Positions 3,543 to 20,811 of a DNA stretch of 52,522 bases are shown in pieces. The position numbers were made by a program, and so were the translations under genes. The notes under the pieces were generated by a model. It did no database searches and was not told the DNA's origin. It saw nothing but the letters and a program-made list of their open reading frames with translations. Position 1 is the stretch's first letter. Each line of letters opens with the position of its first letter. The stretch spans positions 1-52,522 of the forward strand of contig JAFXVJ010000002.1 in assembly GCA_017524615.1 (NCBI GenBank), read 5' to 3'. Origin of the DNA: Clostridia bacterium (GTDB taxonomy: Bacteria > Bacillota > Clostridia > Christensenellales > Aristaeellaceae).

Positions 3543-3728
3543 TCAGATGTGATCCCGGGTGGTGGGATCGTTGACGATGCCGAAGCCAGCCAGCACGGGC
3601 AGCAGGGCGTTCATCAGGCCGTTCACGGGCTCGGCCACATCCAGGCAGAAAAAGGTTTTCAGGCAGAAAACGATCAGGGCGGAAATGGACAGCCACAGGG
3701 CCCAGGATTTCAAACGGTTTTGTTTCAA
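3543..3728 (-). CDS. Phage holin, short form
   Basis: Predicted 61-aa membrane protein that would permeabilise the membrane for the amidase. Two hydrophobic segments are visible, about residues 9-26 and 38-52, followed by GIVNDPTTRDHI. The 'GIxxDPTT' signature is typical of Gram-positive phage holins, which usually continue with GxxDS and a charged tail; here the protein stops almost immediately after the motif. The start is a TTG preceded by AAAGGAG at an 8-bp spacing; no in-frame ATG is available nearby. A 434-bp repeat element separates it from the rest of the lysis module, which may affect its expression. Confidence 0.75.
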   Translation of the reverse strand: MKQNRLKSWALWLSISALIVFCLKTFFCLDVAEPVNGLMNALLPVLAGFGIVNDPTTRDHI

Positions 3729-3751
3729 TGCTTTTTCTCCTTTCTTACTTA

Positions 3752-4185
3752 TACTATTCGCGTTCTCAGATCCAAATTGGCAAGGATGAAACAAGAGCAA
3801 AGGGACGACGGGGGTGTTCTCTTTAGCCCGAAAGAAAACCAGAAAGGGCGCTATAGCGACGGTGGTCATCGTATAGCTTCTGGCCCGGCCGCTGAAAGCG
3901 GCCATCCCGGATGCGATGCATCCGGGGAAAGCCGGGGAATCATCCCCAGGGAAAAGCTCGCTTTTCTCTGAGGATGATCCCGGCTTTCATTGGGCCAGAA
4001 GTCCCAAACGTTCGCAACCTCAGCGTAACACGCGACGATTCCTTGGTTCTATCGATCAAGCAGCTTCGCGAGGAGTGGGTCCAGGGGATCATCCCCTGGC
4101 GCGGGGTTCAGGGGCCGCGAAGGCCCCTGCCTCGTCCTCCTGATCTTATCTCACTCTTTGCGAATTGTGTTTTAGAAGAATAGTA
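3752..4185. repeat. Structured intergenic repeat, copy 1
   Basis: First copy of an approximately 435-bp element repeated at 32349-32789 in the same orientation. The ends are imperfect inverted repeats: TACTATTCGCGTTCT (left) against AGAAGAATAGTA (right). Inside are nested hairpins: CTTCTGGCCC (near 3878) pairs with GGGCCAGAAG (near 4002). Within that are GGCCGC/GCGGCC, CGGATG/CATCCG and GAAAGCCGGG/CCCGGCTTTC. Further right are CCAGGGGAT/ATCCCCTGG and GGGGCC/GGCCCC. It lies between the XhlA-like gene (its right end abuts that stop codon) and the holin. No protein-coding potential with a ribosome binding site was seen. Confidence 0.9.
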
Positions 4186-4500
4186 TTACATCAGCTTGGC
4201 GGTGAAATACCCCGCCGCGGCCAAAACGAGATACTTGATCAGTTCCAGGATCACGGTGTCCCAGCGCTTTCCGGAGCGGCCTTTCAGCTCCTCCACATCT
4301 TTGCTCAGGCGGTTCACGTCCCGGCAGGTGGTATCCTGCTTGTTGGCCAGGTCCCGGATGGACAGGGCCAGCTGGTGCACGGTGTGGGTCAATTGGGTTT
4401 GCTCCTCGATGCGGCGGAAAGCGGTTTTCAGATCCCGGCGCATGGCGGCGCATTGTGCTTTCAGGGCTGACAATTCCTTTTCCAGCTCATTCTGCTGCAT
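4186..4500 (-). CDS. XhlA-like phage lysis-accessory membrane protein
   Basis: A 104-aa protein with a long N-terminal coiled-coil (about residues 3-75, rich in E, K, L, Q) and a single C-terminal membrane helix (ILELIKYLVLAAAGYF). This architecture matches the hemolysin XhlA family encoded beside amidase and holin genes in PBSX-type prophages. There it assists membrane permeabilisation. The ATG at 4500 overlaps the end of the amidase gene by 14 bases, indicating translational coupling. Copy 1 of the structured repeat begins immediately after its stop codon. The assignment rests on architecture and position. Confidence 0.65.
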   Translation of the reverse strand: MQQNELEKELSALKAQCAAMRRDLKTAFRRIEEQTQLTHTVHQLALSIRDLANKQDTTCRDVNRLSKDVEELKGRSGKRWDTVILELIKYLVLAAAGYFTAKLM

Positions 4501-5512
4501 GCTGCGCCTCCTTCCATGCGTCCTCCAGGGTCTCCAGCGCTGTCCGCATCGCCTGCAGCGCGCCGGCGACCGCGGCGGACCGCGGCGCACCCGCATCGCT
4601 GGAATGAATGACGGCGGGCGATGACGGCCCGGTATCATTCCCGCGTGCCGCGGTCAGCGCCTGCCAGGTGCTTTCGTCGCAGACGCCGGTTTCGGGCAAG
4701 CCGCAGGAGGTCTGAAAGGCGAGCACAGCGGCGGCGGTTTCATGGCCGAACTGTCCGTCTGCGCCGCAGCGGGGCAGACGCATGCCCGCTTGGAGCAGCA
4801 TTTCCTGCAATTGGCGCACCCGGTCGCCGGACGCGCCTTTTTTCAGGGGAACCATGGCATCCTTCCTTTCGAAGTCAATGTAGGTCACGTCCACGCCTTC
4901 GTCCAGGGCGTCGTCCACGGCGCGCCTGAAATCCTCGAAATTCATGCCGAATTTGCGCATCCACAGGCCGATATCCCCGTGATTGCTGGCACAGCCGACG
5001 TTGTGCAGGCTGATATGGTCCATCACGGCATAGGCCGGGCCGTCGGGCGTTTCCTGCACCACGGTCCAGGGCTCCACGTTCAGCATTTGGCACAGGTATG
5101 CGGTCAGCAGCACGGCCTTGTCCATCACGGCTTCCTGAAAATAGGCGCGGTTTTCGCAGTTGTCCTCGCAGATTTCGAAGCCAATATAGCCCATGCGGTT
5201 GCCGTTGCCGTTCCTGCCCTGGCCGCTGAGCCAACAGCGCATATCCCAGGGCAGCGTCTGGTAAACGGCCACCGTGCCGTCCTGCAGCTTGCCGACATAG
5301 GCGTTTGCGCATACGGTGCCTTTCGGGTTGTTGTGGCTGTTGTTGTAGATGTTCTTCCCCAGGCGCCCGTCGTCCGGCTGCACGTACCTTTTCAGGTAGG
5401 GGTTATTCGCCCCGGTAGAGTGCACCTGAACCCCGTGCTGGGCCTGGATCGTGCCCTGATGGTAGCATTTCGAATCGGTAAAAAACAGGCGATAGATGGT
5501 CAACGAGCGCAA
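4487..5512 (-). CDS. N-acetylmuramoyl-L-alanine amidase endolysin
   Basis: Endolysin of 341 aa. The N-terminal amidase_2 domain (about residues 1-190) shows GVQVHSTGANNP, with the zinc-binding His in VHSTG, then YIGFEICED and a second histidine in HISLHNVGCASNHGDIG. A peptidoglycan_binding_1 domain follows (LKKGASGDRVRQLQEMLLQAG to DESTWQALT). The C-terminal tail is helical and alanine-rich. The preferred start is a TTG at 5512 preceded by GAGGTGATCCCA; the GTG at 5521 overlaps that site. It would cleave the amide bond between muramic acid and the stem peptide to release particles. Confidence 0.9.
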   Translation of the reverse strand: MRSLTIYRLFFTDSKCYHQGTIQAQHGVQVHSTGANNPYLKRYVQPDDGRLGKNIYNNSHNNPKGTVCANAYVGKLQDGTVAVYQTLPWDMRCWLSGQGRNGNGNRMGYIGFEICEDNCENRAYFQEAVMDKAVLLTAYLCQMLNVEPWTVVQETPDGPAYAVMDHISLHNVGCASNHGDIGLWMRKFGMNFEDFRRAVDDALDEGVDVTYIDFERKDAMVPLKKGASGDRVRQLQEMLLQAGMRLPRCGADGQFGHETAAAVLAFQTSCGLPETGVCDESTWQALTAARGNDTGPSSPAVIHSSDAGAPRSAAVAGALQAMRTALETLEDAWKEAQHAAE

Positions 5513-5531
5513 TGGGATCACCTCAGCAATG

Positions 5532-5617
5532 GGAGGAGGGAAGACGGCAATCGTCCCTCATGGATAAACAGCAAAGCATTTCGCACAACGGGGGATCCGT
5601 CCGTCCCTTTCTCCTCC
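5532..5617. repeat. Imperfect inverted repeat between fibre and endolysin genes
   Basis: Arms GGAGGAGGGAAGACGG (5532-5547) and CCGTCCCTTTCTCCTCC (5601-5617) can form a purine/pyrimidine-asymmetric hairpin in the 120-bp gap. There is no T-run, so an mRNA processing or partial stop signal is as likely as a terminator. Confidence 0.4.
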
Positions 5618-5638
5618 GCTCTCCATTTTGTTGATTTC

Positions 5639-8600
5639 TCACGGAATGAAATACACGTTGCACGCCTGCGCCGTTGCGCTGCCCGTGCCGGTACAGCGCA
5701 GGATGAAATTCTCGTTGACGTTGAACCGGGCATACGTGCTGTCGCTCTTGCGAATCGTCACGGTCAGGGTAATGGATGCCGCGTCCGTCAGGTTCGTCAA
5801 GGCGGCGCTGGGGCTGTTCAGCGTGTCGATCACAAACGAATCGTAGGGATGGATGATGGGCTGGTTCCCGGAAGCGTATGTCTTTTCATAGATCGTGATT
5901 TTGCTGCCCCCGGAGGATTTCTGGGCCTGCACCTTCACATATTCCCAACGGCATGTGCCTGTAATGTTGCCGATGCTCAGTTTCACGCCATAGGTGCATT
6001 GCGTGCCGCCCAACTGCCCGCCCTGGGGGAGGAAGCCCGTCAATTCCTGGCTGGGCGTTTCGCCGCTCATATCCTCGCCATGGGAGCCGGGCAGAATGAA
6101 ATCCACCTGCGTAACGGCGCTCGGCTGCACCCACAGGATGCCGTGGCCGGTTGGCTGGGTGTCGGATACCATGATCTTGTCGCCCAGCGACCCGTTCATG
6201 GCCTGCATCATGGAACTGCTCTTGACGGTCAGTTCATCGAATACGCCGCGCTTTGCGTTGACCGTGCCGCCGCTGCCGAGGGAGAAGTTCGGGGATTGCT
6301 CCGTGCCGCCGAAGCTGATGTAGCTTGCGTCATCCGTCGCGAACACTTCAAACTTGCCCCCGGATTTGACCCGGAACTTGCTCCCGGCTTCCATGTCGAT
6401 AACGCCGCTTTTCATTTCAATGCCGTCCGGGCTGATCTGCAAAGAACTGTTCTGGACACGGTCTGCGTCCTCCGGCGCGGCAGACCATGCGGTCGCGTCC
6501 TCTCCCTTTTCCAGTTTCAGGTTGGACACATAAATGTAATCGCCGGACGCATAGAAGCTGGCGGTGGTTCGGTCACAGGTGATCTGCAGTTGGAGGATCG
6601 TCGCGTCTTGCGGGACGGTGAAGGTAAATTCACAGCGCCCGCTCATCATTGTTCCCCTGTCCGATGGCGTGACGGTGCCGAATACCTTGTACTGATCCGC
6701 TGCCGCAAGCGTGGTGCTGTTGCTCAAAGACGTGTAATTCACATATAGGCCGGCAAACATGCGCCCGTCTGTCGAATCGGAGATTGTGCCGGAAAGCACC
6801 TTCCAAACGGCATTGAAACTCAGCGTGTACTTTTCGCCCGCCACCAGCCCATACAGGGACGGCACATCGTTGCTGTTCGCGCCGAAGCGCAGGATGGGCC
6901 GCACCGCGCTGGTCAGCATTATGCCCATGCCGTGTGGGACGTTTACGGCGGTACCTGCATTGATCTCCATGGGGCGAACGCCGTTCAGATTGGGCCGTGT
7001 GTTCTCGCTGGATGCGTCCGGGGCCATAGTACTGCGGATAAGGTTGCGGCTGCCGATCATTTCGACCGTTTCCGTCACCGCCGCGGTGATGCGGCCCGGG
7101 ATCAGCTCGATTTCCGATTCCGCGTCGCTCATCCTGCCCGTCAGGCCGCTCATATCCGTATTGTAGGTCGTTTGGGACACCTTCAGGTTGAGCTGGTTTT
7201 TCAGCTGGGTGATTTCGCTTTCCGCCGTACCGACCCGTTGAGTTACGCCGGCCACTTCATCGGCCAGATCCTCCGGCGCCGGGGTCCAGTCGGTGGGCTT
7301 GTTTCCCTTTTCCAGCTTCAGATTCCACACCCTGAAGGCCGCGCCGCCGTTGGCATTGTTCAGCCGGATACGCACATAGAAGGCGCCGGTGTAACCCGCG
7401 TGCGCGGCGGTTGCCTTGAAAGTGGAATAAGCCCTGCCGGAAGGGGCCTGGATCACGTCGGGAACGGTGTGCGTGCCGGACGCGATGATGGAGCTGTTCA
7501 GCTGAACGTAGAGGCTCCCCTGCGTGGTGACATCGGTATCCACTTCATAATCAAAGGATACGGTGTAATCCGCGCCTTCCGTGATCAGGGCGGCGCCGTA
7601 ATCGGAAAGATTGTAATTGGACGAGTAGACAGAGGTGGAAGATGACCCCACAGTCTTTGCGGAAACTCTGTCGCTGTTCAGCAGGAAATTCCGGCAGCCG
7701 ATTTCAAGCGAGCCGAGGGAGGAGGAGGCAAGGACCCAGTCCGCAGCGTTATAGGAGCCGGAAGCGCGCCCGGCGGCGCAAACCTTCAGATCAGCCGACG
7801 CGCCGCCGGCCCACAGATCCCCGGGATCGTAGGGCGGAGTGGGCTGGACGGTGAACACGCGGCGTTTGCTGTTCGCGGCGGACTGGGCCTGCCCCGCCGC
7901 TGCGGAGGCGCTGTCCGCCGCGCTCTGGGCCGCGCTGGCGGCCGACGCCGCCGCGGCCGCGGCTGAGGCGGCTTCTGTAACGGAGGCTGTTGCCAGCGCC
8001 CAATCCGCCGCCGCGTAGGATTGCCCGGCTGCCTTGGCGGTTCCGCAGATCTTCAGATCCGCGCTTGATCCGCCTGCCCACAGGTCCCCGGGATCGTAGG
8101 GCGGGGCAGGCTGGGCGGTGAATACGCGGCGCTTATGGTCCGCGGTGTCCTGGGCTGCGCTGGCCGCGCTCATGGCGGAGGAAATATCGCTGTCCTTGAT
8201 GCGGGACCATGCGGAGCCTGTCCAGCGGTAGCAGTAGCCGGTGGCGGTGTTGTAATAAAGATCGTCGGTATGCGCGGCCTGCTGCGCCGCGTTCCAGTCC
8301 TTGGCCGGGGCGTTGGACTCTGTAGGCGCCTCGTCAAAGAACCAGGTGTCGATCTTGCCGTCGACCTGCGCCTGCACGCCGGAAACGGCGCTGTCCGCGT
8401 AAGAAAGAACGCCCGTGATGGCGGCGTCGATGTCCTCCGGGGCAGGCGTCCAGTCGGTAGCGCGGCAGCCCTTTTCCAGCTTCAGGTTTTTCAGCTCAAT
8501 GAAATCCCCGGCGGCAAAGAGCCTGGCGGTGTTGTTGGATGGCTTGAACCGGAAGAACAGCTTGGTGGCCCCTTCCGGCACGGTGAAGGTCCACGCGACG

Positions 8601-9376
8601 CGGCGGCTCATTTCCGTGCCTTTCAATTCCTGCCGATAGTCTGCCAGCTTGTACGCCGTATCGGCCGCGACTGTGCCGGCCTTGAGCGTGCCGATTTCTT
8701 CCGCGTTATGATACATATACAGCATCATGGCGTACGTCGTCGCCGTTTGCTCACCGCTGTACATCTTAAAGCGGGCGTCGCAGCTGAAAGTATAGGTTTC
8801 CCCGGGCACCAGACCCATCAGGGATGCATCATTTACGGTTGTTTCTCCAAAGGTGATGTAGGGAGATACAGCCCCGGCACTGGTGACCTTCAGGCCGTGC
8901 TCCGCGCTTTCATGCGTGCCGGCGGACACGACGGTATATGCACAATCGTTGATCCCGGGCCGGGTGGCGGCGGTTTGTACGTTGGGATACAGGGTGCGCC
9001 TGATCAGGTTCCTGCCGCCGATGTGCAGGTGGTCGATATCGTCCTGCGCCTGCTGGGCGGCCGCGGCCGCGGCCTGGGCCTGGTTGTAGGCCAGCTTGGC
9101 CGCCTCGTAGGCGGACGACACCGATACCATGGAATAGGCGAAGGTCCCGTCTGAAAACTCGGTGCAGTCGCAGAAATACAGGGTGTTGGTGGAGCCGGAC
9201 ACGTACGCGGGCTCGGTATCGTTCCAGCCGCCTGCGGGCGGGTTGGCGGAGGGCTTCGCCGGGGCGGCCAGGGTGGATGCCTGGAGCAGGTAATAGCGCG
9301 TGGTTTTCGCAACGTCCACCACACAGCTCAGGGTGACGGACGCGGATGCCTTGACAGAGATGGGAATCACCCCCAA
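5639..9376 (-). CDS. Large phage tail fibre / receptor-binding protein with carbohydrate-binding-like modules
   Basis: Protein of about 1240 aa. A unique N-terminal region (1-90) is followed by an Ala/Gln coiled segment (about 90-115). Three beta-sandwich modules resembling CBM4/9 each end in a LKLEKG...W..APED motif, at about residues 299, 687 and 960. Between the first two are two near-identical modules KRRVFT(A/V)QP(A/T)PPYDPGD with Ala-rich linkers. The C-terminal region is beta-rich. The start is uncertain: TTG (9376) and GTG (9370) are in frame but have no upstream site. A GGGGGTGA sits so that an AUC codon at 9361 would have ideal spacing. Likely role: host surface glycan recognition at the tail tip. 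Confidence 0.8.
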   Translation of the reverse strand: MGVIPISVKASASVTLSCVVDVAKTTRYYLLQASTLAAPAKPSANPPAGGWNDTEPAYVSGSTNTLYFCDCTEFSDGTFAYSMVSVSSAYEAAKLAYNQAQAAAAAAQQAQDDIDHLHIGGRNLIRRTLYPNVQTAATRPGINDCAYTVVSAGTHESAEHGLKVTSAGAVSPYITFGETTVNDASLMGLVPGETYTFSCDARFKMYSGEQTATTYAMMLYMYHNAEEIGTLKAGTVAADTAYKLADYRQELKGTEMSRRVAWTFTVPEGATKLFFRFKPSNNTARLFAAGDFIELKNLKLEKGCRATDWTPAPEDIDAAITGVLSYADSAVSGVQAQVDGKIDTWFFDEAPTESNAPAKDWNAAQQAAHTDDLYYNTATGYCYRWTGSAWSRIKDSDISSAMSAASAAQDTADHKRRVFTAQPAPPYDPGDLWAGGSSADLKICGTAKAAGQSYAAADWALATASVTEAASAAAAAASAASAAQSAADSASAAAGQAQSAANSKRRVFTVQPTPPYDPGDLWAGGASADLKVCAAGRASGSYNAADWVLASSSLGSLEIGCRNFLLNSDRVSAKTVGSSSTSVYSSNYNLSDYGAALITEGADYTVSFDYEVDTDVTTQGSLYVQLNSSIIASGTHTVPDVIQAPSGRAYSTFKATAAHAGYTGAFYVRIRLNNANGGAAFRVWNLKLEKGNKPTDWTPAPEDLADEVAGVTQRVGTAESEITQLKNQLNLKVSQTTYNTDMSGLTGRMSDAESEIELIPGRITAAVTETVEMIGSRNLIRSTMAPDASSENTRPNLNGVRPMEINAGTAVNVPHGMGIMLTSAVRPILRFGANSNDVPSLYGLVAGEKYTLSFNAVWKVLSGTISDSTDGRMFAGLYVNYTSLSNSTTLAAADQYKVFGTVTPSDRGTMMSGRCEFTFTVPQDATILQLQITCDRTTASFYASGDYIYVSNLKLEKGEDATAWSAAPEDADRVQNSSLQISPDGIEMKSGVIDMEAGSKFRVKSGGKFEVFATDDASYISFGGTEQSPNFSLGSGGTVNAKRGVFDELTVKSSSMMQAMNGSLGDKIMVSDTQPTGHGILWVQPSAVTQVDFILPGSHGEDMSGETPSQELTGFLPQGGQLGGTQCTYGVKLSIGNITGTCRWEYVKVQAQKSSGGSKITIYEKTYASGNQPIIHPYDSFVIDTLNSPSAALTNLTDAASITLTVTIRKSDSTYARFNVNENFILRCTGTGSATAQACNVYFIP

Positions 9377-9524: not shown

Positions 9525-10610
9525 TTACCCTTCCAGCTGGGCGATGTACGTGGCTTTGTTGGTCACGTCGCCGGCGGACACGTTCAGGGTTTGGCCGGTG
9601 GCGATGGGCGTGGCATTGCCGTCCTTGTACCATTTCACGGTTCCCAGAGCGGTGAGATCATTGCCCGTCACCTCCACGCCGGCCTTGAACACATGGGCGG
9701 TGAGGGTGGTTTCGATGGCGCTGTTTTTAAAGATCATGCCGTTGCTGCTGGTGATGCTCATGGTGATGGCGTCGGCGCCGGGATCGCCCTGGGGGCCGGT
9801 GGCGCCGATTTCGCCCTTGATGTTGTTCACATATACCCACTTGGCGGCGCTGGCGGATCCGGCCGTGGTGCAGCGGTAGGTGTTATAGGTTTCGGTGTTC
9901 AGGTACATATCGCCCACCACGGCCTTGCTGATGCCCGAGCCGGAAAAGACGGTGGCGGTGGTGCTGGTGCCGGTGATGGCGGTGCCGGAATACCACAGGC
10001 TGGCCGTACCTGACGCGCCGGCGCCGCCCCGGATGCTGATCTGGCTGCCGGCGAATACGCTGCCGCTGTCTACCGTCAGGACGGTATAGCGGTAATAGCT
10101 GTGCAGGATGATGTCCCCGGGCTTGACGGTCATGCCCTCTGGGCCGGTGAGGGCGGATTCGTTCCAGGTGTAATTGGGGGTGGTGGGGGCGGCGGTGGCG
10201 GTCCAGATGGCGCTGCCCTCAGCCCCCGCCGCGCCGGGCTGGCCGGTTGCGCCGGTGAAGGCGATGGCCAGACTCATTTCCTTGTTGATGGTGATATCGC
10301 TGTCCACCACCACGGGGATCCTCACCACGCCCGCCGCGGTGAAGCTGGCGGAGGCGGTGATGGTGAGGGTGGGGCTGGTGGCGTCGTTATCCTTGGTGAC
10401 GGTGATGCCGGTGGGCGTGACCACATTGTTCAGGTTCACCGTGGCGGCAATCTGCTCGGAGCCACGCATGGCGATGATTTGGGTGGTGCAGCTGCCCGGC
10501 TTGGCGGCATTCACCGTGCCGGGAAAGGTGTAGCTGTCATTGGTCAGAATCACCGAATAGGCGTCGGTAATGTCCACGATGGAAATCTGGTCTGCGCTTT
10601 TGATGGCCAT
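9525..10610 (-). CDS. Phage tail-tip structural protein with short collagen-like segment
   Basis: A 361-aa protein starting MAIKSADQISIVDITDAYSV, a beginning common in Gram-positive phage tail or fibre proteins. It contains Ig-like, Thr/Val-rich beta segments (about residues 60-125 and 290-361), a first Gly-rich turn GATGQPGAAGAEG (about 119-131), and a collagen-like GATGPQGDPGADA run near residue 270. An AAGGAGG site precedes the ATG. Sitting between the hub and the large fibre gene, it probably forms part of the host-interaction tip. The exact role is not known. Confidence 0.7.
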   Translation of the reverse strand: MAIKSADQISIVDITDAYSVILTNDSYTFPGTVNAAKPGSCTTQIIAMRGSEQIAATVNLNNVVTPTGITVTKDNDATSPTLTITASASFTAAGVVRIPVVVDSDITINKEMSLAIAFTGATGQPGAAGAEGSAIWTATAAPTTPNYTWNESALTGPEGMTVKPGDIILHSYYRYTVLTVDSGSVFAGSQISIRGGAGASGTASLWYSGTAITGTSTTATVFSGSGISKAVVGDMYLNTETYNTYRCTTAGSASAAKWVYVNNIKGEIGATGPQGDPGADAITMSITSSNGMIFKNSAIETTLTAHVFKAGVEVTGNDLTALGTVKWYKDGNATPIATGQTLNVSAGDVTNKATYIAQLEG

Positions 10611-13463: not shown

Positions 13464-14042
13464 CTACAGGGTCAGTTCCACCCGGCCCGTGCCGTGGGAC
13501 ACCCGGTTGATGCCCTCGATGGCGGCCACGCCCAGGCGGTATCCGTCGATCTCCAGGGGAATGGTGAGAGAAATGGGGGGCAGGGCAGCCTCCCCGGCGG
13601 GAGCGGCGGCGGACGGGGCGGCAGCGGGGACGGGGACGGGCACGTCAGGGAATTGCAGGGCGGCGGCGGTACGGCTGCCAAGGGAGGCCGCCTCCCGCTC
13701 CACCCGGTTCGCACTGCCCGCAATGCCCTGGAGCAGCCCTTCGTCGAAAAGCGCGCCCATCTGCTGCGTGACCCGGGACGGAGAATGAATGGCCAGCGCG
13801 CCCCGCAGGGCGGAGGCGGCCGCCTGGGCCAGGGCCTGGGCCGCCTGGGCCACGGCGCTGCGGCGGGACAGGAGACCGATGCGCAGGCCGTCCCCCGCCT
13901 GCGAACCGGCGGCTGTGAAGTGATCGGCCATGCCGTCCGCCTGGGAAGCGGCGACGGAGATCAGGCCGCTCACCTGGCTGACCGCCTGAGCAAATGGGGC
14001 CACATCGGCGGAGAATACCACCGAGAGTTCTTCCAAAGTCAT
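13464..14042 (-). CDS. Very short tail tape measure protein
   Basis: A 192-aa protein in the tape-measure position. Its N-terminus (MTLEELSVVFSADVAPFAQA) is typical of tape measure proteins. AIHSPSRVTQQMGALFDEGL near residue 85 corresponds to the 'SPSR...G..i..Gl..GI' motif normally found after the long central region. A Pro/Ala-rich linker and a C-terminal beta segment follow. Tape measures are usually 600-2000 aa, so the long helical ruler is essentially missing. With about 0.15 nm of tail per residue this predicts a tail near 30 nm. The ATG overlaps the upstream stop by four bases. It is either an internal deletion or an adaptation to a short-tailed particle. Confidence 0.75.
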   Translation of the reverse strand: MTLEELSVVFSADVAPFAQAVSQVSGLISVAASQADGMADHFTAAGSQAGDGLRIGLLSRRSAVAQAAQALAQAAASALRGALAIHSPSRVTQQMGALFDEGLLQGIAGSANRVEREAASLGSRTAAALQFPDVPVPVPAAAPSAAAPAGEAALPPISLTIPLEIDGYRLGVAAIEGINRVSHGTGRVELTL

Positions 14043-14661
14043 GAGGATGCATCCTTTCCGCGCCAGGCAAGCAGGCGCTGTTTCATATCATCGGCGGTCA
14101 TGGGGGCGGAAGCGGGCGCCGGCGGCGGCGGGGGAAGGCGATCCGGAGCATGAAAGGCCAGGGCGGCATGCCGGGCCAGCAGCCATATTTCCCATTCCCG
14201 CCGCCAGGCTCGCGCCCGGTGCGCCTGGATCAGCAGAGCGATTTCCCGGGGCGTCATGGCAAACATCCGGGGCGCTTCCGCCACGCCCGCCTCCGCGGCG
14301 CATCGGATCAGGCGAAAGAAGCGCTGCCGGAGGGCTCCGCCGCTTCCTTCGCCGCTCTCCCCATGTCCGCCTTCGGGTGAAAAAAACAGGCGTCCTCCAG
14401 TGCGGCGGAAAGCTGCGCCGCCACCTGGCCAAGATCGCCGCCCGCCGCCAAATGCGCGTCCAGCAGATCCCCGGCCTGGGAAAGGGTCATGCCGGGGCAG
14501 CTCTCCATCAGGCCGCACCACAGCAGACCCCGCAGGCAGGATATCTGCCGGCTTTCCAGGGCGGCCAGGCTGACGCCCGTTTTTTCCTCCAGGCAGCACA
14601 GGGCGTTGACCGAGAACCGCAGGGAGTATTCCCGCCCGTTCAGGGTGATGGAACGGTTCAC
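14039..14661 (-). CDS. Tail assembly chaperone long form, made by -1 frameshift (GT-like)
   Basis: The second chaperone frame is open from 14599 to 14039 and has no start with a good ribosome binding site; candidate ATGs at 14266 and 14257 are poorly served. The upstream frame carries a U-UUU-UUU slippery heptamer in exactly the phase required for a -1 shift into it. The fusion would be 207 aa: residues 1-94 from the first frame, then SPEGGHGESGEG, then RQRFFRLIRCAAEAGVAEAP and the helical MTPREIALLIQAHRARAWRR segment. That last segment resembles tail-assembly chaperone C-terminal parts. This is the G/GT arrangement of lambda-like and many other tailed phages. Confidence 0.75.
14308..14661 (-). 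CDS. Tail assembly chaperone short form (G-like)
   Basis: A 117-aa, mostly helical protein (MNRSITLNGREYSLRFSVNA, then SLAALESRQISCLRGLLWCG). It lies between the tail tube and tape measure genes, the standard position of the tail chaperone that binds the tape measure. The start is a GTG overlapping the tail tube stop (GTGA), implying translational coupling because no strong site is present. A slippery heptamer about 70 nt before its stop allows the longer fusion product. Confidence 0.75.
   Translation of the reverse strand: MNRSITLNGREYSLRFSVNALCCLEEKTGVSLAALESRQISCLRGLLWCGLMESCPGMTLSQAGDLLDAHLAAGGDLGQVAAQLSAALEDACFFHPKADMGRAAKEAAEPSGSASFA
14380..14386 (-). promoter_or_regulatory. Slippery heptamer for programmed -1 frameshift
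   Basis: Seven consecutive T on the coding (-) strand, phased T TTT TTT after TG in the codon TGT, which is the X XXY YYZ arrangement. A -1 slip joins the first chaperone frame to the second, open frame. Downstream GC-rich sequence could supply a stimulatory structure. Confidence 0.75.
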
Positions 14662-15062
14662 GACAGGGTCACGCCGCCGGTGAGCCGCAGCACGGCGGTA
14701 AAGCCCACCGCCCCATCCACCGTGGCCGCGCCCAGGGCATAGGATTTGACAAAGGCGGAAAAGGCGGCGGCGGTACCGTCGGGGAAGGTGACGGTGAAGG
14801 GCGTGACAGCGCCGGACTGGTAGAGCGTGCGCAGCCTGGACTGGCCCGCGCTGCCCGATTCAAAAAAGCCCTCCAGGGTCACCTCGCCCAGATCCTTCAG
14901 CCCCTGAACGTAAGCTTTGCAGCCGTCCGCGGCGTCCAGGGTGGTCACGTCAATGGCTTCGCTGTCCGCCTTGATTTCGCTGATGGAGCGCAGGGAGCCG
15001 ATGAGCAGGGGGTTGTTGTCGACAGTGCACGAAATCGTCGTGCCCATGGCTTTTTGAGGCAT
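14658..15062 (-). CDS. Phage major tail tube protein
   Basis: A 134-aa beta-rich protein (MPQKAMGTTISCTVDNNPLL, then IDVTTLDAADGCKAYVQGLK and GEVTLEGFFESGSAGQ). This is the pattern of siphophage/lambda gpV-like tail tube proteins. It would polymerise into the tail tube around the tape measure. AAAGGAGGAATACC precedes the ATG. Its stop overlaps the GTG of the chaperone gene. Confidence 0.85.
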   Translation of the reverse strand: MPQKAMGTTISCTVDNNPLLIGSLRSISEIKADSEAIDVTTLDAADGCKAYVQGLKDLGEVTLEGFFESGSAGQSRLRTLYQSGAVTPFTVTFPDGTAAAFSAFVKSYALGAATVDGAVGFTAVLRLTGGVTLS

Positions 15063-15074: not shown

Positions 15075-15431
15075 TTACTGATAAATCAGGTTTTGCTTCA
15101 AAACAGCCCGGTAGCGCAGGTATTTGCGGTAAGCCCGGGCCTCCTCGTCATAAAAATCCTGGCGGTGCCGGCAGCGCAGGCCCAGCGCGGTGAGGGCTTC
15201 ATCGGCCTGGCCGGCCAGGGATTCCGCGCCGGCGGCGTCGGCGGCGTAGATGTTCACCGCGATCAGGTATTCATCCAGGCAGGGCAGCCCATCCGCCTGG
15301 GCCAGCACCCCGCCCGCCTCGTCGGAAACGGCGATGACGGGCAGGGGGAGATCCGCCTGCGGAAAGGAAGCGGTGATATGCGCCGGAAGCGTGGCCAGGG
15401 CGGAGAGCAGGGTGGGTTTCAGGTCGATCAT
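15075..15431 (-). CDS. Tail completion / terminator-like protein
   Basis: A 118-aa protein starting MIDLKPTLLSALATLPAH, with YLIAVNIYAADAAGAESLA and RQDFYDEEARAYRKYLRYRA. Its location just before the tail tube gene and its size match the tail terminator (gpU-like / gp17-like) group. The ATG overlaps the preceding stop by four bases (ATGA). The function is inferred from position and the ferredoxin-like alternation of strands and helices. Confidence 0.6.
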   Translation of the reverse strand: MIDLKPTLLSALATLPAHITASFPQADLPLPVIAVSDEAGGVLAQADGLPCLDEYLIAVNIYAADAAGAESLAGQADEALTALGLRCRHRQDFYDEEARAYRKYLRYRAVLKQNLIYQ

Positions 15432-15754
15432 CGAAGCACCTCCCGCAGAAACTGGGATAGGATACGCGCATAATCCGTGCCGCGCAGGGCGGGCATCATA
15501 AAGGGCCGGGCCGGGGAATAACGGGTGCCCAGCTCCACCGACGCGGCGTAGGGACAGTCCGCAGTCAGGGCAGCGCCGGCGGGATGGGAAACCGCGGCGA
15601 GAGACGCGCGCAGACGGCCTGTCTGCACGGGAACCAAATGGCGGGACAGGCGCAGGGCGCTTTGGGCTGCGGCCAGGGCGCCGCTTTTCGCCGCACTTTC
15701 CGCCAGATGGGGCATGGCCGACAAGCGGCACAGAACAGGATCCAGGCCGTTCAT
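15428..15754 (-). CDS. HK97 gp10-like head-tail / tail-joining protein
   Basis: A 108-aa protein with SALRLSRHLVPVQTGRLRAS, followed by YAASVELGTRYSPARPFMMP. The combination 'vPvdTGrLR.Sl ... YA..vE.Gt ... apRPFm.pA' is diagnostic of the HK97-gp10 family of neck/tail proteins. The ATG at 15754 overlaps the upstream stop (ATGA) with AGGTG nearby. The alternative GTG at 15763 is less well placed. Confidence 0.8.
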   Translation of the reverse strand: MNGLDPVLCRLSAMPHLAESAAKSGALAAAQSALRLSRHLVPVQTGRLRASLAAVSHPAGAALTADCPYAASVELGTRYSPARPFMMPALRGTDYARILSQFLREVLR

Positions 15755-16011
15755 CGGGCACACCTGCGCAAATCGGCCTGCACATGGCCGGTCAGACAGC
15801 GGGTCAGCACGCAGACATAAGGCGCGCCGTCCACCGTCACCCGGTCTCCCGGGAAGATTTCGGTGTTCCAGGGCAGCAGCAGCCGCAGCATATCCTGGAC
15901 GTATTCTCCGTAGCGCAGGGCGGACAGCAAGCCGGACACGGGCCGCACGGCGGCGCGCATTTCATGTCCGCGGCACAGGACGGTCACCCGGCCGCGCTGA
16001 AGCAATCGCAT
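15751..16011 (-). CDS. Putative head closure (stopper) protein
   Basis: An 86-aa beta-rich protein (MRLLQRGRVTVLCRGHEMRA, later FPGDRVTVDGAPYVCVLTRC). Position between the connector and gp10-like genes, and the small beta-barrel look with 'GDRV...G..Y.V', fit the head closure/stopper group. The start ATG at 16011 has AGGAGG nine bases upstream. A 127-bp gap to the upstream gene, with GC-rich palindromes, precedes it. Confidence 0.6.
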   Translation of the reverse strand: MRLLQRGRVTVLCRGHEMRAAVRPVSGLLSALRYGEYVQDMLRLLLPWNTEIFPGDRVTVDGAPYVCVLTRCLTGHVQADLRRCAR

Positions 16012-16138: not shown

Positions 16139-16441
16139 TCAGGTTTTGGCCAGCCGGAAAGAGAATATTTCCCGGCGCAGGTTTTCCGGCAAATCCTGTG
16201 CGGCGCGGCGCACATCGCCCTCGGAATGCGCGCTTTCCCCTTCCATTCCCATCCGGTTATAGAAGATCACCGCCAGGCGCAGCTGCGCGTTTTGCAATTC
16301 CTCCGGCACCTGGGTGCGCCAGGTGAGGGCGCAGATCAGGGCGGCGGCGTCCCGAAGCAGGGAGAGCAGCAGATCATCCGCCGCGTCGGCGGCGTCGGGC
16401 AGGCGCAGCCGCAGCTGGGAGAGCAATTCCTGGCTCGTCAT
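16139..16441 (-). CDS. Phage head-tail connector protein (gp6-like)
   Basis: A 100-aa helical protein (MTSQELLSQLRLRLPDAADA, then DDLLLSLLRDAAALICALTW and QNAQLRLAVIFYNRMGMEGE). It is typical of the gp6/gp15-like adaptor that binds under the portal. The ATG at 16441 lies 10 bp after the coat protein stop, with GAGG upstream. This start is supported by homology-like content, whereas a longer frame extends upstream through the coat gene. Confidence 0.75.
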   Translation of the reverse strand: MTSQELLSQLRLRLPDAADAADDLLLSLLRDAAALICALTWRTQVPEELQNAQLRLAVIFYNRMGMEGESAHSEGDVRRAAQDLPENLRREIFSFRLAKT

Positions 16442-16451: not shown

Positions 16452-17564
16452 TCAGCCCAGGGCGCGCACGGCCAACTCGGGATACAGGGTCCTGAAGCCG
16501 TAAAGCACATCCATGGACAGCATTTCCCGCTTGTGCTGCATATCGTAGCCGCGCACCACCCGCAGGGACACGCCGTTGTAGTGGGTGACGTAGCTTTCCA
16601 CGCCGCCGGGGGCGGTGAGGGGACGGGTGACGAAGGCGAAGGCCATGGGATGGAAGGCCAGATTGGCGGTGTGGCTGCCCGGCAGGGTGACGGCGGTGTT
16701 CGCGGCAAGCGCGGGCAGGGCGGGGGCCACCTTCACGGTGTTGATGGAATTGCTGGCAGCGGCGGCGGTATCCTCCGTGACGGTGTAAGATTTTCCGTCC
16801 ACGACGATCAGGTCGCCCTTCACCAGCTTGCCGGTGAGGGAAGTGCCGGTGAGGGACAGGGCGCTGCTGCCGGCGGACACGGCGGTTTTCACCTTCACGC
16901 CCTCGGCGGCGGTGATGCCCGTCTCGTGACGGCACACGCCCTGGCTCATATAGTGGTCCATGCCCATGACGCGCCCGATACTGCCCTCCCGCAGGGCCTG
17001 GGTGGAGCCGGATTTTTCCGCATGGACGATGGCGTCCAGGGCGGTGAAGGCGGCGTCCGCTTCCGGATCCCACACTGCGCAGCGGCCAGACACGGGAGCC
17101 TTGCTCTGGTTCAGGGCTTTGCGCACGCTGGCAAAAGCGCTGAGGGTGGAGGGTGTGACGCCCGCCTCGCCCACGGTCTGATACACGTCCTGATACAGCT
17201 TCAGGCCGTCCCGGTTGATTTTTTCCGCCAGGGCCGCGGCGGCGGGATCAATGAACACCCGCGTCAGATCGTCGATGCTGGTGGCGCCCTGGAGCGCTTC
17301 GATGCCCACATCCACGGTGGCGATTTTGTCCAGCGTCACATCCACGGTGGTTTCCACGATATCCTGCGTGCTCACGCCCTGATCGGGATCGAAATCCCGG
17401 GCTTCCAGCACCACGGGCTTGCGCACCTGGATGGTGTCGCCTTTCATGGCGGAATAATCGTCGGAATAATCCTTGTGGATCAGATTGGGAAACACCAGGT
17501 GATCAATCAGCCGGGGCAGGGCGGCGCGGGCAAAATCCTTGATGGTGACAAACGAATTGGCCAT
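16452..17564 (-). CDS. Major capsid protein, P22 coat-like family
   Basis: A 370-aa protein starting MANSFVTIKDFARAALPRLI. LVFPNLIHKDYSDDYSAMKG and GDTIQVRKPVVLEARDFD follow. The 'aReaL..L...lv..nlvhrdYs.ef...GdtV.IrkP' pattern is typical of the P22-coat (HK97-fold) family in Clostridial phages. An inserted beta domain is suggested by VKTAVSAGSSALSLTGTSLT (about residues 230-290), a likely I-domain-type insertion. AAAGGAGG precedes the ATG. It forms the icosahedral shell together with the upstream scaffold protein. Confidence 0.85.
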   Translation of the reverse strand: MANSFVTIKDFARAALPRLIDHLVFPNLIHKDYSDDYSAMKGDTIQVRKPVVLEARDFDPDQGVSTQDIVETTVDVTLDKIATVDVGIEALQGATSIDDLTRVFIDPAAAALAEKINRDGLKLYQDVYQTVGEAGVTPSTLSAFASVRKALNQSKAPVSGRCAVWDPEADAAFTALDAIVHAEKSGSTQALREGSIGRVMGMDHYMSQGVCRHETGITAAEGVKVKTAVSAGSSALSLTGTSLTGKLVKGDLIVVDGKSYTVTEDTAAAASNSINTVKVAPALPALAANTAVTLPGSHTANLAFHPMAFAFVTRPLTAPGGVESYVTHYNGVSLRVVRGYDMQHKREMLSMDVLYGFRTLYPELAVRALG

Positions 17565-17579
17565 GATGGGATTCCTCCT

Positions 17580-18014
17580 TTATTCGTTGCGGCATACGGC
17601 CGCGTAATAGTCCTCGTCGGACAGATCGGACAGGGAAACGGCGGAAGCGGACTTGGGGACGGCGGTGAGCAGCCGTTTTTCCACTTCCTGCTGCACGGCG
17701 GCGCGGAAAGCCTCCTCCAAGGTGTCCACGGCGGCGCGGAGGGCAGCTTCATCCTCCAGGCTCAGGCATTCGGCCAGGCCGGCGGGCAGGCCCCTTTCCT
17801 CCAGCGCTTCCCGGGCCATGGCTGCCATCTCGCGGCGGTTCAGGTCGGCCTCCCGGGTATCCAGGGCCTGCTGACGGCTGGATTCCGCCTGGGACAGGGC
17901 TTCCAATTGCGCGGACAGCTGCTGCGCCAGGGCGGTGAGCTGGCGCTCGGCGTCGGTCAGCGTCAGGGGCTGATCGCCGGCGGATTCCGATGCGGTGATG
18001 GGAAATTCTTCCAT
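17580..18014 (-). CDS. Capsid scaffolding protein
   Basis: A 144-aa acidic, highly helical protein. A coiled-coil runs from about residue 20 to 70 (LTALAQQLSAQLEALSQAES). A short C-terminal region VSLSDLSDEDYYAAVCRNE follows, resembling the coat-binding 'lsdmsDeEYY' tail of gp20-type scaffolds. It is placed between portal and coat genes, as expected. An AGGAGG site lies six bases upstream of the ATG. Confidence 0.8.
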   Translation of the reverse strand: MEEFPITASESAGDQPLTLTDAERQLTALAQQLSAQLEALSQAESSRQQALDTREADLNRREMAAMAREALEERGLPAGLAECLSLEDEAALRAAVDTLEEAFRAAVQQEVEKRLLTAVPKSASAVSLSDLSDEDYYAAVCRNE

Positions 18015-18024
18015 TTGTAACCTC

Positions 18025-19305
18025 CTATTTCTTTTCGGGCTTGTCCCCGTCCAGGAAGGGCAGCTGGGACAAGAGGATACTGTCGGGCACCATGCCCTCC
18101 AGGGTTTTCACCATCTGCGCGGTTTCCAGGGCAGATTCGGGCAGGGCGCGGGCAAAGGTGATGCGGATGCCGGTTTCATCCAGGGCGCGGCCGCCCTTGA
18201 CGGCCAGGAAGTGGGCATAGCAGCGCAGGCGCTCCTGCAGGGCCTCCCGGAACCAGCGTTCTTTCAGGCGGGTCAACTGCTCCAGCCCCAGCAGTTTGTA
18301 CTTCATAGCCACGCCGCTGACATTGCCGGCAAACTGATCGTCGGACAGATCGGGGATCATGGAAAACTTGTGGATGTCCTTTTCCAGCGCCCGGCGCAGC
18401 TCCTCCGCCCCGGCGCCGGACTGCTTGACCAGGTATTGGGCGCCGGCGTCCCGATCGGGCAGATACAGCAGCTTGTCCTGCCGCAGCTGCTGGGCGGGGG
18501 TGCGGCCCCGTTCGTCCGTTTCCAGCCGCGCGCCGTACACGATCAGCAGCGCGTCCACCAGCTGCTCCTGATCGTTCACCCGGCTTTCCTCCAGCGCGTC
18601 ATAGGCGTCGATCAGGGAGAGCACCGCTTCGGCGTCGCCGGTTTCCTCTTCGTTGTTCCAGTATTCGATCAGGGGCAGATGGCCAAAATAATGGGGGCAG
18701 CGGCTGACCGGCGCGCCCCGGAGCAGGGTGGCATAACCGGCGGCGCGGTAGGTGATCCGTTCCGAATCGGTATACACATCCGCTTCATAGCCGCGGGGCG
18801 ATCCGTTTTCATCGGTGATGGGATGAAAATGAATGCCGAACAGGGGATCGGAGCTGGCGTCGTCGGCGTATACCACAAAGGCGCAGCGTGGATCCAGCAC
18901 GGCGGAACGGGGAGCGGCCTGACGATCGATATAAATCACTTCCACGCCTTTGCCGTACAGGGAGGCTTGGCGGGCCAACTCAATATCCACGCCGGCTACA
19001 TTGGCCTGCCGGTAGGCGCGGCGCACTTCTTCCGCGCCGGGGCCGTCCCCTTGGTAGGTGACGGCGGAGCCCGCCAGATAAGAGGAAGCAATGGTGACGA
19101 TGGAACGCACGAAGGCGTGATGCAGCCGGTGATCCGGCAATCCCTCGGCCCGGGCGGGACGGCCGGGGGCGGTGAGCAGCAGATAGGCGTCCCGGAGGCG
19201 GTTGAGACGCTCCGTTTGCCGCAGGTGTTCATGAAGGCAGCCCTGCAAAAGCCGGCCGGACAAGCCGTTTTGCAGGAGTGCCCGGTCGCGGGTGATCAAG
19301 GGCAT
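18025..19305 (-). CDS. Phage portal protein (SPP1 gp6-like)
   Basis: A 426-aa portal subunit that would form the dodecameric DNA channel at one capsid vertex. Family features: HHAFVRSIVTIASSYLAGSA near residue 65, a GKGVEVIYID segment, DPLFGIHFHPITDENG, and the C-terminal DLSDDQFAGNVSGVAMKYKL characteristic of SPP1-type portals. The ATG at 19305 follows AGAGGAGAA closely. It is slightly shorter than SPP1 gp6 (about 500 aa) but similar to portals of many defective Clostridial elements. Confidence 0.9.
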   Translation of the reverse strand: MPLITRDRALLQNGLSGRLLQGCLHEHLRQTERLNRLRDAYLLLTAPGRPARAEGLPDHRLHHAFVRSIVTIASSYLAGSAVTYQGDGPGAEEVRRAYRQANVAGVDIELARQASLYGKGVEVIYIDRQAAPRSAVLDPRCAFVVYADDASSDPLFGIHFHPITDENGSPRGYEADVYTDSERITYRAAGYATLLRGAPVSRCPHYFGHLPLIEYWNNEEETGDAEAVLSLIDAYDALEESRVNDQEQLVDALLIVYGARLETDERGRTPAQQLRQDKLLYLPDRDAGAQYLVKQSGAGAEELRRALEKDIHKFSMIPDLSDDQFAGNVSGVAMKYKLLGLEQLTRLKERWFREALQERLRCYAHFLAVKGGRALDETGIRITFARALPESALETAQMVKTLEGMVPDSILLSQLPFLDGDKPEKK

Positions 19306-19339
19306 TTCTCCTCTCGTTTTTTATGGGGCGAAGGGGTCG

Positions 19340-20584
19340 TTACAATCCCAGGGCCTTTTTGCTGCCGGTTTGGGCCCGGCGGTCCTCCATGTCGTTTTCC
19401 AGGGCATAGCGCAGGGCGTCGATCAGGTGGTTGTCCTGATCCCGGGGCCGGGGCAGGGCCACGCCGTCCCGGTCGCGCTGCCACTGGTAGCGGGTCAGTT
19501 CCTCCCGCAGGTACGCGCAGGCGGGGGACAGGATGATTTCCTGCTGCCGCAGCCACTGGATGCCGTGGAGCACGCTGTCCGGCCCTTTGCGCGCGGGATA
19601 CGCCCGGATGCCCAGGGAACGCAATTCCGCGATGGATTTGGGCTCGGCGCTGTCACAGGCGATGGGGCCTAAGGACGCATAGGGCGCCAGCAGGCGGGAC
19701 AGGGCCAGGTTGGTCAGGCCCGTTTCCTTGATTTCCCCGATTACCCAAACGCGCCGCTCCTTTCGCTCATACCGCAGCAGCAGGAATCCGCAGGGATCGG
19801 CGGCAAAGCCGAAATCCAGCCCCATGCGGCATTCGCCGGGCACGGGATCGGGCAGCGCCTCGCAGCGCCAGTTGGTGAAGATCACGTCCCCCGCCACGCC
19901 CCAGTTGCCCAGGGTGTACACCTGGTAATAGTAGGGGTTGCGTTCGTTTTCCAGGGCGGAGCGGTCCTCCGGGGTCAGGAAGCGGTTATCACGGTACGTG
20001 GTTTTCAGGATGGACACCTGAGGGCTTTCGCTGTAGACCCGGTCGTCCCGCCAGATGGAAAAGAATTCCTTATAGATCCAGTGGGTGCGCGCGATGGGGT
20101 TGAAGGACAGGGTGAGGCGTTTGGGGTGGGGACTGAGGCCGCGAAGACGCTTGTCCAGCTGCTTGAAATCCGTATAAGCGCATTCGGTGGCTTCCTCGAT
20201 CCAGACATCCGTCAGCGCGCCCCGGGCAGGGGTGATGGACTTGATCTTTTCCACATCGTCCAGCCCGGCAAACAGGATCTGGGCGCCGTTGTTGCGGGCG
20301 GTGATGGTCCATTCGGATTTATTGACGGAAAACAGACGATTCAGGCCCAGCTGGTTCATGGCCTTCAGGATTTCGTTCCAGCAGCTGTTGCGCAGCGTGC
20401 GGGCCACCTGGCGCACCACCAGGGTATTGCGGCCCCGCAGCGTATCCAGGACGCAGCGGGTGGCCAGAAACACGCTTTTTCCGCTGCCCGCGCCGCCGAA
20501 ATAGATCTGATAGCGGTGAAGATTGTTCAGGTGCGGGCGGTATGCCTTGTTGATGCAGTCACCGCGTAGCGTGATGCGCGGCAT
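19340..20584 (-). CDS. Phage terminase large subunit, PBSX-like
   Basis: DNA-packaging motor, 414 aa from the ATG at 20584 (AGGAGG ten bases upstream). An ATG at 20593 overlaps the upstream stop. Walker A is FGGAGSGKSVFLA near residue 30. The Walker B/catalytic acid region is DVWIEEATE. The C-terminal RNase-H-like nuclease shows GLDFGFAADP, PIACDSAEP and DNHLIDALRYA. The ATPase and nuclease acidic residues appear intact, so the packaging enzyme may be functional. Relatives in PBSX-type defective phages package host DNA. Confidence 0.92.
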   Translation of the reverse strand: MPRITLRGDCINKAYRPHLNNLHRYQIYFGGAGSGKSVFLATRCVLDTLRGRNTLVVRQVARTLRNSCWNEILKAMNQLGLNRLFSVNKSEWTITARNNGAQILFAGLDDVEKIKSITPARGALTDVWIEEATECAYTDFKQLDKRLRGLSPHPKRLTLSFNPIARTHWIYKEFFSIWRDDRVYSESPQVSILKTTYRDNRFLTPEDRSALENERNPYYYQVYTLGNWGVAGDVIFTNWRCEALPDPVPGECRMGLDFGFAADPCGFLLLRYERKERRVWVIGEIKETGLTNLALSRLLAPYASLGPIACDSAEPKSIAELRSLGIRAYPARKGPDSVLHGIQWLRQQEIILSPACAYLREELTRYQWQRDRDGVALPRPRDQDNHLIDALRYALENDMEDRRAQTGSKKALGL

Positions 20585-20589
20585 AAGAT

Positions 20590-20811
20590 TCATTCCTCCT
20601 TTACGCAGATGTCGAAGTCGCCCCCGGCGGGAGCCTCGGCCTGGAGGGGATATACCCGCTCCAGAATCAGGGCCGCGGCCTTGAGCACGTCGCCATTGCC
20701 GGTATCGGGGTTCAGGAGCAGGTCAGATAACCTTTGCAGCGCCTGGATCGCTGCCTCCTGGGTCTTTTCCCGCACCACCTGGGCGGGAGTGGGTCGCTTT
20801 TTGCCAGCCAT
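20590..20811 (-). CDS. Putative terminase small subunit (very short)
   Basis: A 73-aa protein, first gene of the cassette, ending FDICVKEE and overlapping the large-subunit gene. Content: a basic N-terminus (MAGKKRPTPAQVVREKTQEA), one helical pair (AIQALQRLSDLL and VLKAAALILERVYPLQ). Small subunits usually have 110-180 aa with a helix-turn-helix for pac recognition, which is not evident here. AAAGGAGGTGAGC is placed for the ATG at 20811. Its identity rests on position; it could be a reduced small subunit with relaxed DNA specificity, as expected for a generalised packager. Confidence 0.55.
   Translation of the reverse strand: MAGKKRPTPAQVVREKTQEAAIQALQRLSDLLLNPDTGNGDVLKAAALILERVYPLQAEAPAGGDFDICVKEE

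Follow-up and report, generated by a model that had tools for sequence, protein, structure and literature searches.

The 52,522-nucleotide window analysed here (positions 1 to 52,522 of contig JAFXVJ010000002.1, assembly GCA_017524615.1, from a Clostridia bacterium of the family Aristaeellaceae) holds a cassette of phage-type genes whose sequence is best read as that of a gene transfer agent (GTA)-like element that arose independently and is not built like PBSX. Minus-strand genes fill positions 3543-20811 and encode an intact packaging, head, tail and lysis set between the host genes pyrH and truA. With a probability of about 0.62, the cassette represents a domesticated cluster, inherited vertically, for a siphovirus-type particle that would act as a GTA. 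A first-pass annotation, made from the letters of the window alone, had described a full gene set for building, filling and releasing a particle, encoded on one strand at the pyrH-truA site; family searches and the identities of the flanking genes confirmed this description.

Genes for an autonomous phage life were not recovered. The open reading frames (ORFs) of the cassette matched no family of integrases, repressors, replication proteins or antirepressors, apart from one PHROG named integrase; its match (E 8e-4) covers only the peptidoglycan-binding domain of the endolysin and is taken as spurious. Both tyrosine integrases found in the genome are located on contigs other than that of the cassette (serine recombinases were not searched genome-wide), and among the 20 largest repeat families listed, out of 60 or more, there is no att-type direct repeat joining the cassette ends. 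Family scans and repeat listing thus bear out the earlier statement that such genes, and visible att sites, are absent. Having no detected integrase and lysogeny module, the cassette was rejected as a functional temperate prophage, and a recent prophage was rejected on the co-divergence with hosts described below together with the absence of a detected att site and neighbouring integrase.

Inheritance and constraint of the cassette

Across 29 genomes of the genus, the capsid gene was found in 14, as a single copy in each. Ten of these belong to the window's own lineage (lineage A: G000, G001, G002, G009, G014, G018, G021, G022, G026 and G027), and four form a clade B (G008, G012, G015 and G024). 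The position is conserved in lineage A: terS directly adjoins truA in eight of the ten genomes and is linked to it in a ninth (G001, about 4.5 kb apart), and in G022 the contig is cut. At the other end, the holin gene lies no more than about 1.2 kb from pyrH in G000, G014, G018 and G021, and 4.5 kb from it in G026. Both junctions were found again on single contigs of the independent assemblies G014 and G018, and the three complete copies (window, G014 and G018) measure 13.7-17.3 kb. The clade B cassette is diverged (TerL 61-64%) and occupies another site, where the same gene of 248-249 amino acids (aa), with a sub-threshold match to F420-ligase, adjoins terS in three of the four genomes; the neighbour differs in G024.

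A host tree was constructed from rpsB, tsf, pyrH and truA for 28 of the 29 genomes (G011 was dropped for too little sequence). On this tree, the presence and absence of the cassette require two changes, compared with a mean of 9.7 after shuffling (0 of 500 shuffles were as low), and the number remains two when two outgroup genomes are added. Presence and absence alone do not separate gain from loss on a tree; the pattern is read here as two losses from ancestral presence. Within lineage A, six of seven splits are common to the host and cassette trees, a result equalled by 2 of 20,000 label shuffles. In an approximately unbiased (AU) test on the cassette data, the host topology (0.584) was accepted alongside the cassette's own (0.416), and all eight shuffled topologies were rejected. 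On these comparisons, the cassette is mostly vertically inherited and co-diversifies with its host in the ten A-lineage genomes, clade B excepted.

Selection was gauged in lineage A as the median pairwise dN/dS by a counting method; at median dS of 0.35-1.18, the values obtained in this way are approximate. The lowest medians belong to portal (0.18), terL (0.20), major capsid protein (MCP; 0.21) and tail tube (0.26), followed by tape measure (0.35), Dit (0.36), Tal (0.42), chaperone (0.43) and scaffold (0.45). Host genes range from 0.12 to 0.20 (pyrH 0.12, truA 0.20), so that the constraint on terL, portal and capsid (about 0.2) equals that on truA. The highest single-pair values were 0.93 for the scaffold and 0.84 for the chaperone. 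Among 166 core-gene matches, seven stops were flagged, all of them upstream of the start codon or among the final 12 aligned residues; no pseudogenes were encountered among the core genes. The first-pass annotation had named a conserved position, a host-like phylogeny and dN/dS well below 1 as marks of domestication. All three were found, the last with medians of 0.18-0.45 over nine cassette genes, and maintenance by the host is well supported by position, phylogeny, purifying selection and the lack of core-gene pseudogenes.

Composition was also compared. GC content at codon positions 1 and 2 (GC12) is higher in the cassette than in host genes in all 15 genomes considered (ten of lineage A, four of clade B and G067), with a mean difference of +0.044 (Wilcoxon p 6e-5); at the third position (GC3), cassette and host genes in the same genomes are equal (p 0.89). 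Raised GC at positions 1 and 2 has been reported for RcGTA-like clusters in the accessible part of that study (PMC7360931). The pattern fits a GTA and is no proof of GTA function, because alanine- and glycine-rich structural proteins would also yield a rise in GC12. Carbon content per residue is below that of viral homologues for terL (5.12 vs 5.21) and for the portal (4.92 vs 5.10). The difference has the expected direction but does not discriminate, because the viral contigs average 39% GC and values for terL and the tape measure are lower still in related cassettes of other genera.

Outside the genus, a clear capsid relative (E below 1e-15) was detected in 34 of 300 sampled family genomes, spread over 12 genera, and 24 of the 58 matches were weak. 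The best capsid match among 50,697 phage records is 40% identical, and all 16 IMG/VR loci found through the capsid are contigs under 14 kb. Relatives differ in how phage-like they appear. Cassettes of G069 (L186), G256 (L177), G130 (L180) and G271 (L182) carry a full-length TerS; a phage-type activator (phrog_36) lies upstream in G256 and G069, a similar-looking ORF in G130 and G271, and G069 additionally encodes a CI/LexA-like protein. These four cassettes may represent phage-like ancestors or intermediates. The relative in G241 (L184) is also phage-like; its capsid is of the same family (63-64%), and it encodes a DNA methylase as well as a tape measure of 1203 aa. At the other extreme, G035 (L103/L104; L103 at about 14-20 kb) harbours a gutted relative, reduced to a TerS-position gene, TerL (58%), a portal piece, fibre, endolysin and holin, with the remaining head and tail genes absent.

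Packaging proteins, tape measure and promoter

Two parts of the cassette are reduced as in RcGTA, the first being its small terminase. The terS ORF (20590..20811, minus strand) encodes 73 aa, or 75 aa from an alternative GTG start at 20817, and overlaps terL. In 13 genus carriers and G067, the corresponding proteins comprise 62-76 aa and start behind a Shine-Dalgarno sequence. Pfam and PHROG searches gave no family match for this mini-TerS. An AlphaFold2 model (mean pLDDT 76) predicts only a hairpin of two helices, at residues 11-35 and 41-55, with no fold resembling a helix-turn-helix (HTH), and a Foldseek search with the model returned nothing significant (best E 1.2). The ORF is taken as the small terminase from its position, size, conservation and predicted helical fold. 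The reduced small subunit proposed earlier was thus recovered, with an HTH-less predicted fold. Among seven TerS-position proteins from related cassettes of other genera, four (G256, G069, G130 and G271; 135-200 aa) match the HTH region of Terminase_2. A further ten such proteins, drawn from 20 inspected phage loci and G035, were tested; six of them (124-229 aa) match TerS families, and those of L044 and L047 matched HTH families when re-tested against Pfam. For comparison, the RcGTA TerS (107 aa) has no HTH, and predicted GTA small terminases measure 92-125 aa according to the available text of that work (PMC6854486).

The large terminase gene terL (19340..20593, minus strand) matches PF04466, PF17288 and TIGR01547 (161 bits, cut-off 105), and its nearest PDB chain is 2wbn (E 4.5e-40), which we take to be the SPP1 terminase. 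Walker-type and nuclease acidic residues, presumably the catalytic ones, are invariant in an alignment of 11 homologues. The first-pass annotation had called this terminase PBSX-like with apparently complete motifs. The motif residues proved invariant, and the likeness to PBSX holds for the family name only.

A second miniature is the tape measure (13464..14042, minus strand; phrog_1686 E 1.9e-20), which has 192 aa in the window and 179-214 aa in nine distinct relatives; no match was obtained at E 1e-5 among the 50,697 phage records. It aligns to positions 1027-1135 of the 1224-position phrog_1686 profile. Residues 1028-1126 of the 1203-aa tape measure in G241, whose capsid is 63% identical, match the same positions; thus, the cassette retains the C-terminal part of a tape measure and is without about a thousand residues. 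The RcGTA tape measure is given, by segment lengths, as approximately 216 residues for a tail of 49 nm in the accessible part of its structural description (PMC7296036).

Upstream of terS lies a candidate cassette promoter (20838..20870, minus strand), in which a GTCAG-N5-GTCAG direct repeat is followed by a TATACT -10-like box. The repeat, with a -10-like box 11-13 bp on, occurs in all nine A-lineage genomes that have DNA upstream of terS, six times exactly and three times with mismatches. The four clade B genomes, with the cassette at their other site, show a degenerate motif with a GCC-type first half and then GTCA. The exact pattern occurs once in the window's own genome. Across the 29 genomes it has 11 distinct sites, six of them terS promoters; the five others are close to the level of a reversed-pattern control (4), and a wider regulon was therefore rejected. 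A sigma-70 consensus scan did not list the terS motif, and listed a divergent truA-side site at 20925-20953.

Taken together, these parts suggest how the particle would operate. A host-controlled promoter with the GTCAG direct repeat would switch on one long operon, and a P22-type capsid would be assembled with an SPP1-type portal and terminase. Without a DNA-recognition domain, TerS would select no specific pac site, and the head would probably be filled with pieces of the host chromosome by random headful packaging. A very short tail would be joined to the head, holin and endolysin would lyse the producer cell, and the particle could then deliver its DNA to related cells selected by the species-specific fibre module.

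Interpretation and known systems

A GTA viriform is defined by six listed features (PMC9662315). Three of these could be addressed directly: the proteins are caudoviricete-derived, by protein similarity; endogenization is full, the cassette lying between host genes with no integrase or att site found; and inheritance is mostly vertical, with co-diversification, in the ten A-lineage genomes. Of the other three features, packaging of mostly random host DNA has an indirect indication in the HTH-less TerS, and a head too small for the whole element would have to hold less than the 13.7-17.3 kb of the complete copies. For the delivery of DNA to other cells, the ComEC family was considered as a recipient marker and set aside, being present in 28 of the 29 genus genomes, in carriers and non-carriers alike, and therefore permissive at most.

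Compared with RcGTA (Rhodogtaviriformidae), as far as the accessible literature describes it, the cassette shares a vertically inherited head-tail cluster, an HTH-less TerS, a short tape measure and raised GC12. It differs in its coat, which is of P22/Sf6 type, and in its portal and terminase, which are of SPP1/PBSX type; moreover, its TerS (62-76 aa) falls below the 92-125 aa given for GTAs in the available text (PMC6854486). No RcGTA capsid or portal chain is listed in PDB sequence searches with the MCP and portal, and the tail tube alone matches an RcGTA chain, weakly. By this sequence test, the origin of the cassette is therefore independent, and membership in the RcGTA-like family, with homologous head genes, was rejected, the capsid belonging to the P22 coat family. 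FpGTA of Faecalibacterium provides another comparison, made here by description from the accessible text (PMC12946183). Both systems belong to gut Clostridia, have a TerS without an obvious DNA-binding domain, encode holin and endolysin and are conserved genus-wide; FpGTA, however, consists of two operons and is most likely podovirus-like, whereas the cassette is a single cluster with a siphovirus-type tail. Christensenellaceae, with 3 of 25 events, is one of several families for which the same text reports packaged DNA of GTA type, and Onthomonas, Gemmiger and Faecalibacterium are the metagenome-assembled genomes (MAGs) that it names as searched for the gene cluster; in the portion available, no gene cluster for the Christensenellaceae packaging is given (PMC12946183). 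No description of the present cluster was found in the open literature searched, most subscription papers being outside that scope. Somewhat short of even odds, and thus tentatively, the cassette may be an independently evolved, siphovirus-type Clostridia GTA cluster, about as old as the genus and equipped with a promoter of its own and a minimal TerS, and related clusters may explain the GTA-like packaged DNA of Christensenellaceae.

SPP1 and P22/Sf6 are headful packagers. With them, the cassette shares an SPP1 portal family, a P22/Sf6-like coat and a terminase nearest to 2wbn; it differs in its lambda-like tail tube, its tiny tape measure and in that no phage life-cycle genes were found. PBSX of Bacillus subtilis is built with a contractile tail and encodes regulators of its own. 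The cassette resembles it in the PBSX-family TerL name (TIGR01547), the XhlA-like protein, the holin and the amidase, and differs in that Pfam scans of its ORFs detected no sheath family; it was accordingly rejected as a PBSX-type element despite the TerL family. The first-pass annotation had proposed either a GTA or a PBSX-like particle. The small size of TerS and of the tape measure, and how strongly terL, portal and capsid are constrained, favour the GTA alternative; the PBSX alternative proved weak in build.

The main rival, held to be unlikely and still of some weight, is a domesticated killer particle that packs host DNA without delivering it and kills related strains through its fibres, in the manner of PBSX, which packs host DNA and does not inject it according to the accessible text of PMC12946183. 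The PBSX-family terminase name, the XhlA-like protein, the holin and the endolysin are all compatible with such a particle, and the combination of a shared head and tail core with fibres and a Tal C-terminus that differ between species is what evolution of target range would be expected to produce. Nevertheless, the scanned ORFs contain no contractile sheath family, and no candidate immunity gene was recognised (no search was aimed at immunity genes). The distribution of constraint also counts against this reading, being tightest on terL, portal and capsid (about 0.2) and looser on the tape measure (0.35) and Tal (0.42).

Intact core genes under purifying selection across the lineage, and invariant terminase motif residues, make it improbable that the cassette is a conserved defective prophage kept for another use (phage interference, altruistic lysis or DNA release) or in slow decay, even though the gutted relative in G035 and the two changes to absence, if presence is ancestral, point in that direction. 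Least credible, at very long odds, is a phage or satellite that is still mobile and integrates at pyrH-truA with enzymes supplied from elsewhere. The empty junctions of G028 and G016, the second site in clade B and the more phage-like relatives in other genera, with their full TerS, phage activator and CI/LexA-like protein, would suit such an element. Against it stand the congruence of cassette and host trees, the single copy per genus genome, and the failure to see an att repeat or an adjoining tyrosine integrase.

Several observations weigh against a domesticated GTA itself. Fifteen of the 29 genus genomes do not carry the cassette, which is therefore dispensable. Presence in a single strain, with an empty pyrH-truA junction elsewhere, had been named at the outset as a finding that would speak against domestication, and clean empty junctions do exist: the pyrH and truA ORFs lie about 110 bp apart in G028 and are separated by a DUF5655 ORF alone in G016 (among the other non-carriers, the two genes are on separate contigs in ten, and one of the two was not found in three). 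The distribution of these absences fits two changes on the tree, not one recent insertion. The cassette tree places clade B outside lineage A plus the sister genus g40, whereas the host tree makes clade B sister to part of A; clade B is therefore a second lineage, older or separately acquired. Raw distances among the 14 carriers correlated only weakly in a Mantel test (r 0.22, p 0.057). As regards packaging, homology between the mini-TerS and phage TerS is not demonstrable by profile alignment (hhalign probability below 1%), and the loss of an N-terminal TerS domain is thus something we infer. Furthermore, three of the seven related TerS-position proteins have no HTH family match (G033, 155 aa; G241, 158 aa; G089, 93 aa), the G033 protein showing a weak match confined to the C-terminal portion of a TerS profile. 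A TerS without a detected HTH is therefore not unique to this lineage, and G241 looks phage-like.

If the cassette does act as a GTA, DNA exchange in the gut would gain a defined set of genes, shared by ten ruminant-gut Clostridia genomes (one per species). Sister species with and without the cassette, intact and clean-empty junctions and a single candidate promoter offer a natural experiment, and the very small TerS a system for studying how lost DNA recognition converts a phage packager into a packager of host DNA.

Gene content and neighbouring features

The genome is a draft of 2.55 Mb, 81.6% complete, in which the window belongs to contig C32. To the left of the cassette are rpsB, tsf and pyrH (2616-3344; amino-acid kinase family); to the right are the tRNA pseudouridine synthase gene truA (listed at 20912-21730, its true start probably near 20972) and a PnrA/BMP-type transporter. 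On the minus strand, terS and terL are followed by portal, scaffold, MCP, adaptor, stopper-position gene, neck/tail completion, tail terminator, tail tube, tail assembly chaperone, tape measure, Dit-position gene, Tal, fibres, endolysin, XhlA-like gene and holin. Tight overlaps (ATGA for terS/terL, GTGA for tube/chaperone) and intact core genes uphold the earlier description of intact, closely packed frames with good ribosome binding sites, except that Shine-Dalgarno sequences precede most starts but not all, none being seen for the neck, chaperone and large fibre.

All cassette genes that follow are on the minus strand. The portal (18025..19305) is SPP1 gp6-like (PF05133 E 1.5e-79; TIGR01538, portal_SPP1), with relatives at 59-88% identity in MAGs from ruminant guts whose titles read Clostridia, Clostridiales or Christensenellaceae. 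The head scaffolding protein (17580..18014) matches PF14265 and phrog_172. The MCP (16452..17564; PF11651 E 1.1e-44) belongs to the P22/Sf6 coat family and carries an inserted beta-rich domain; the best matches of its structure model are the Sf6 and P22 coats. Next come the head-tail adaptor (16139..16441; phrog_132), the stopper-position gene (15751..16011), assigned by position only, without a family match and kept in carriers, the neck/tail completion protein (15428..15763; phrog_5 E 1.2e-8), the tail terminator (15075..15431; phrog_78 E 1.1e-10) and the lambda-like tail tube protein (14658..15062; PF16461, PF16460, phrog_158). The tail assembly chaperone (14308..14661; phrog_2115, phrog_183) is overlapped by an open frame at 14039-14599 that has no convincing start and finds matches in 11 other carriers of the genus; its sequence is consistent with a candidate gpG/gpGT-type frameshift product of the chaperone.

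The Dit-position (distal tail) protein (13101..13448) matches phrog_1194, a family without annotated function, and the tail tip protein Tal (10706..13099) matches phrog_6616. In Tal, the N-terminal ~620 aa are conserved and the C-terminus is variable, the homology of relatives ending near residue 620. A fibre/tip protein (9525..10610; phrog_38044, phrog_3267) found no match in other carriers. The large tail fibre (5639..9376; 1245 aa; phrog_21973) varies between species, with no match in lineage A and stretches of 31-49 aa only in two clade-B genomes. The endolysin (4487..5521, start approximate) combines Amidase_2 with a peptidoglycan-binding domain (PF01510, PF01471). A lysis protein at 4186..4500, presumably XhlA-like, matches phrog_937 ('hemolysin', E 7.5e-10) and has a Shine-Dalgarno sequence at its start at 4500. 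The holin (3543..3728), probably of 61 aa from a TTG with a Shine-Dalgarno sequence, matches phrog_297 (E 7.7e-7); its matches to PF04531 and TIGR01598 are under the cut-offs.

Around pyrH, the DUF5655 gene that stands alone at the junction of G016 lies between pyrH and the holin gene in G018, and a similar ORF occurs in G021. The coordinates of these ORFs next to pyrH are L093 (1117-1494), L131 (11051-11428) and L116 (1677-2072), the family being shown for L093 and L116 and similar by eye in L131. In L163, an IMG/VR contig with a related cassette, a pyrH-like match (51%) is located at the contig end (2-313) and is oriented like terL, which differs from the window; either coincidence or a recurrent neighbourhood could account for it.

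Two corrections concern the lysis end of the cassette: the holin takes the coordinates given above, and a 436-bp structured multicopy repeat (3751..4186, plus strand) separates it from the XhlA-like gene as an insertion. A second copy lies at 32349-32789, the genome holds 40 long copies (40 of 84 candidates scored), and fragments occur in G003 and G012. The element is bounded by the terminal inverted repeat ATACTATTC and is predicted to fold very strongly (-208.8 kcal/mol, z -11.4); its three Rfam matches are all far below the gathering score. The repeat is not part of the ancestral cassette, and its sequence looks like that of a miniature inverted-repeat transposable element (MITE)-like or structured interspersed element.

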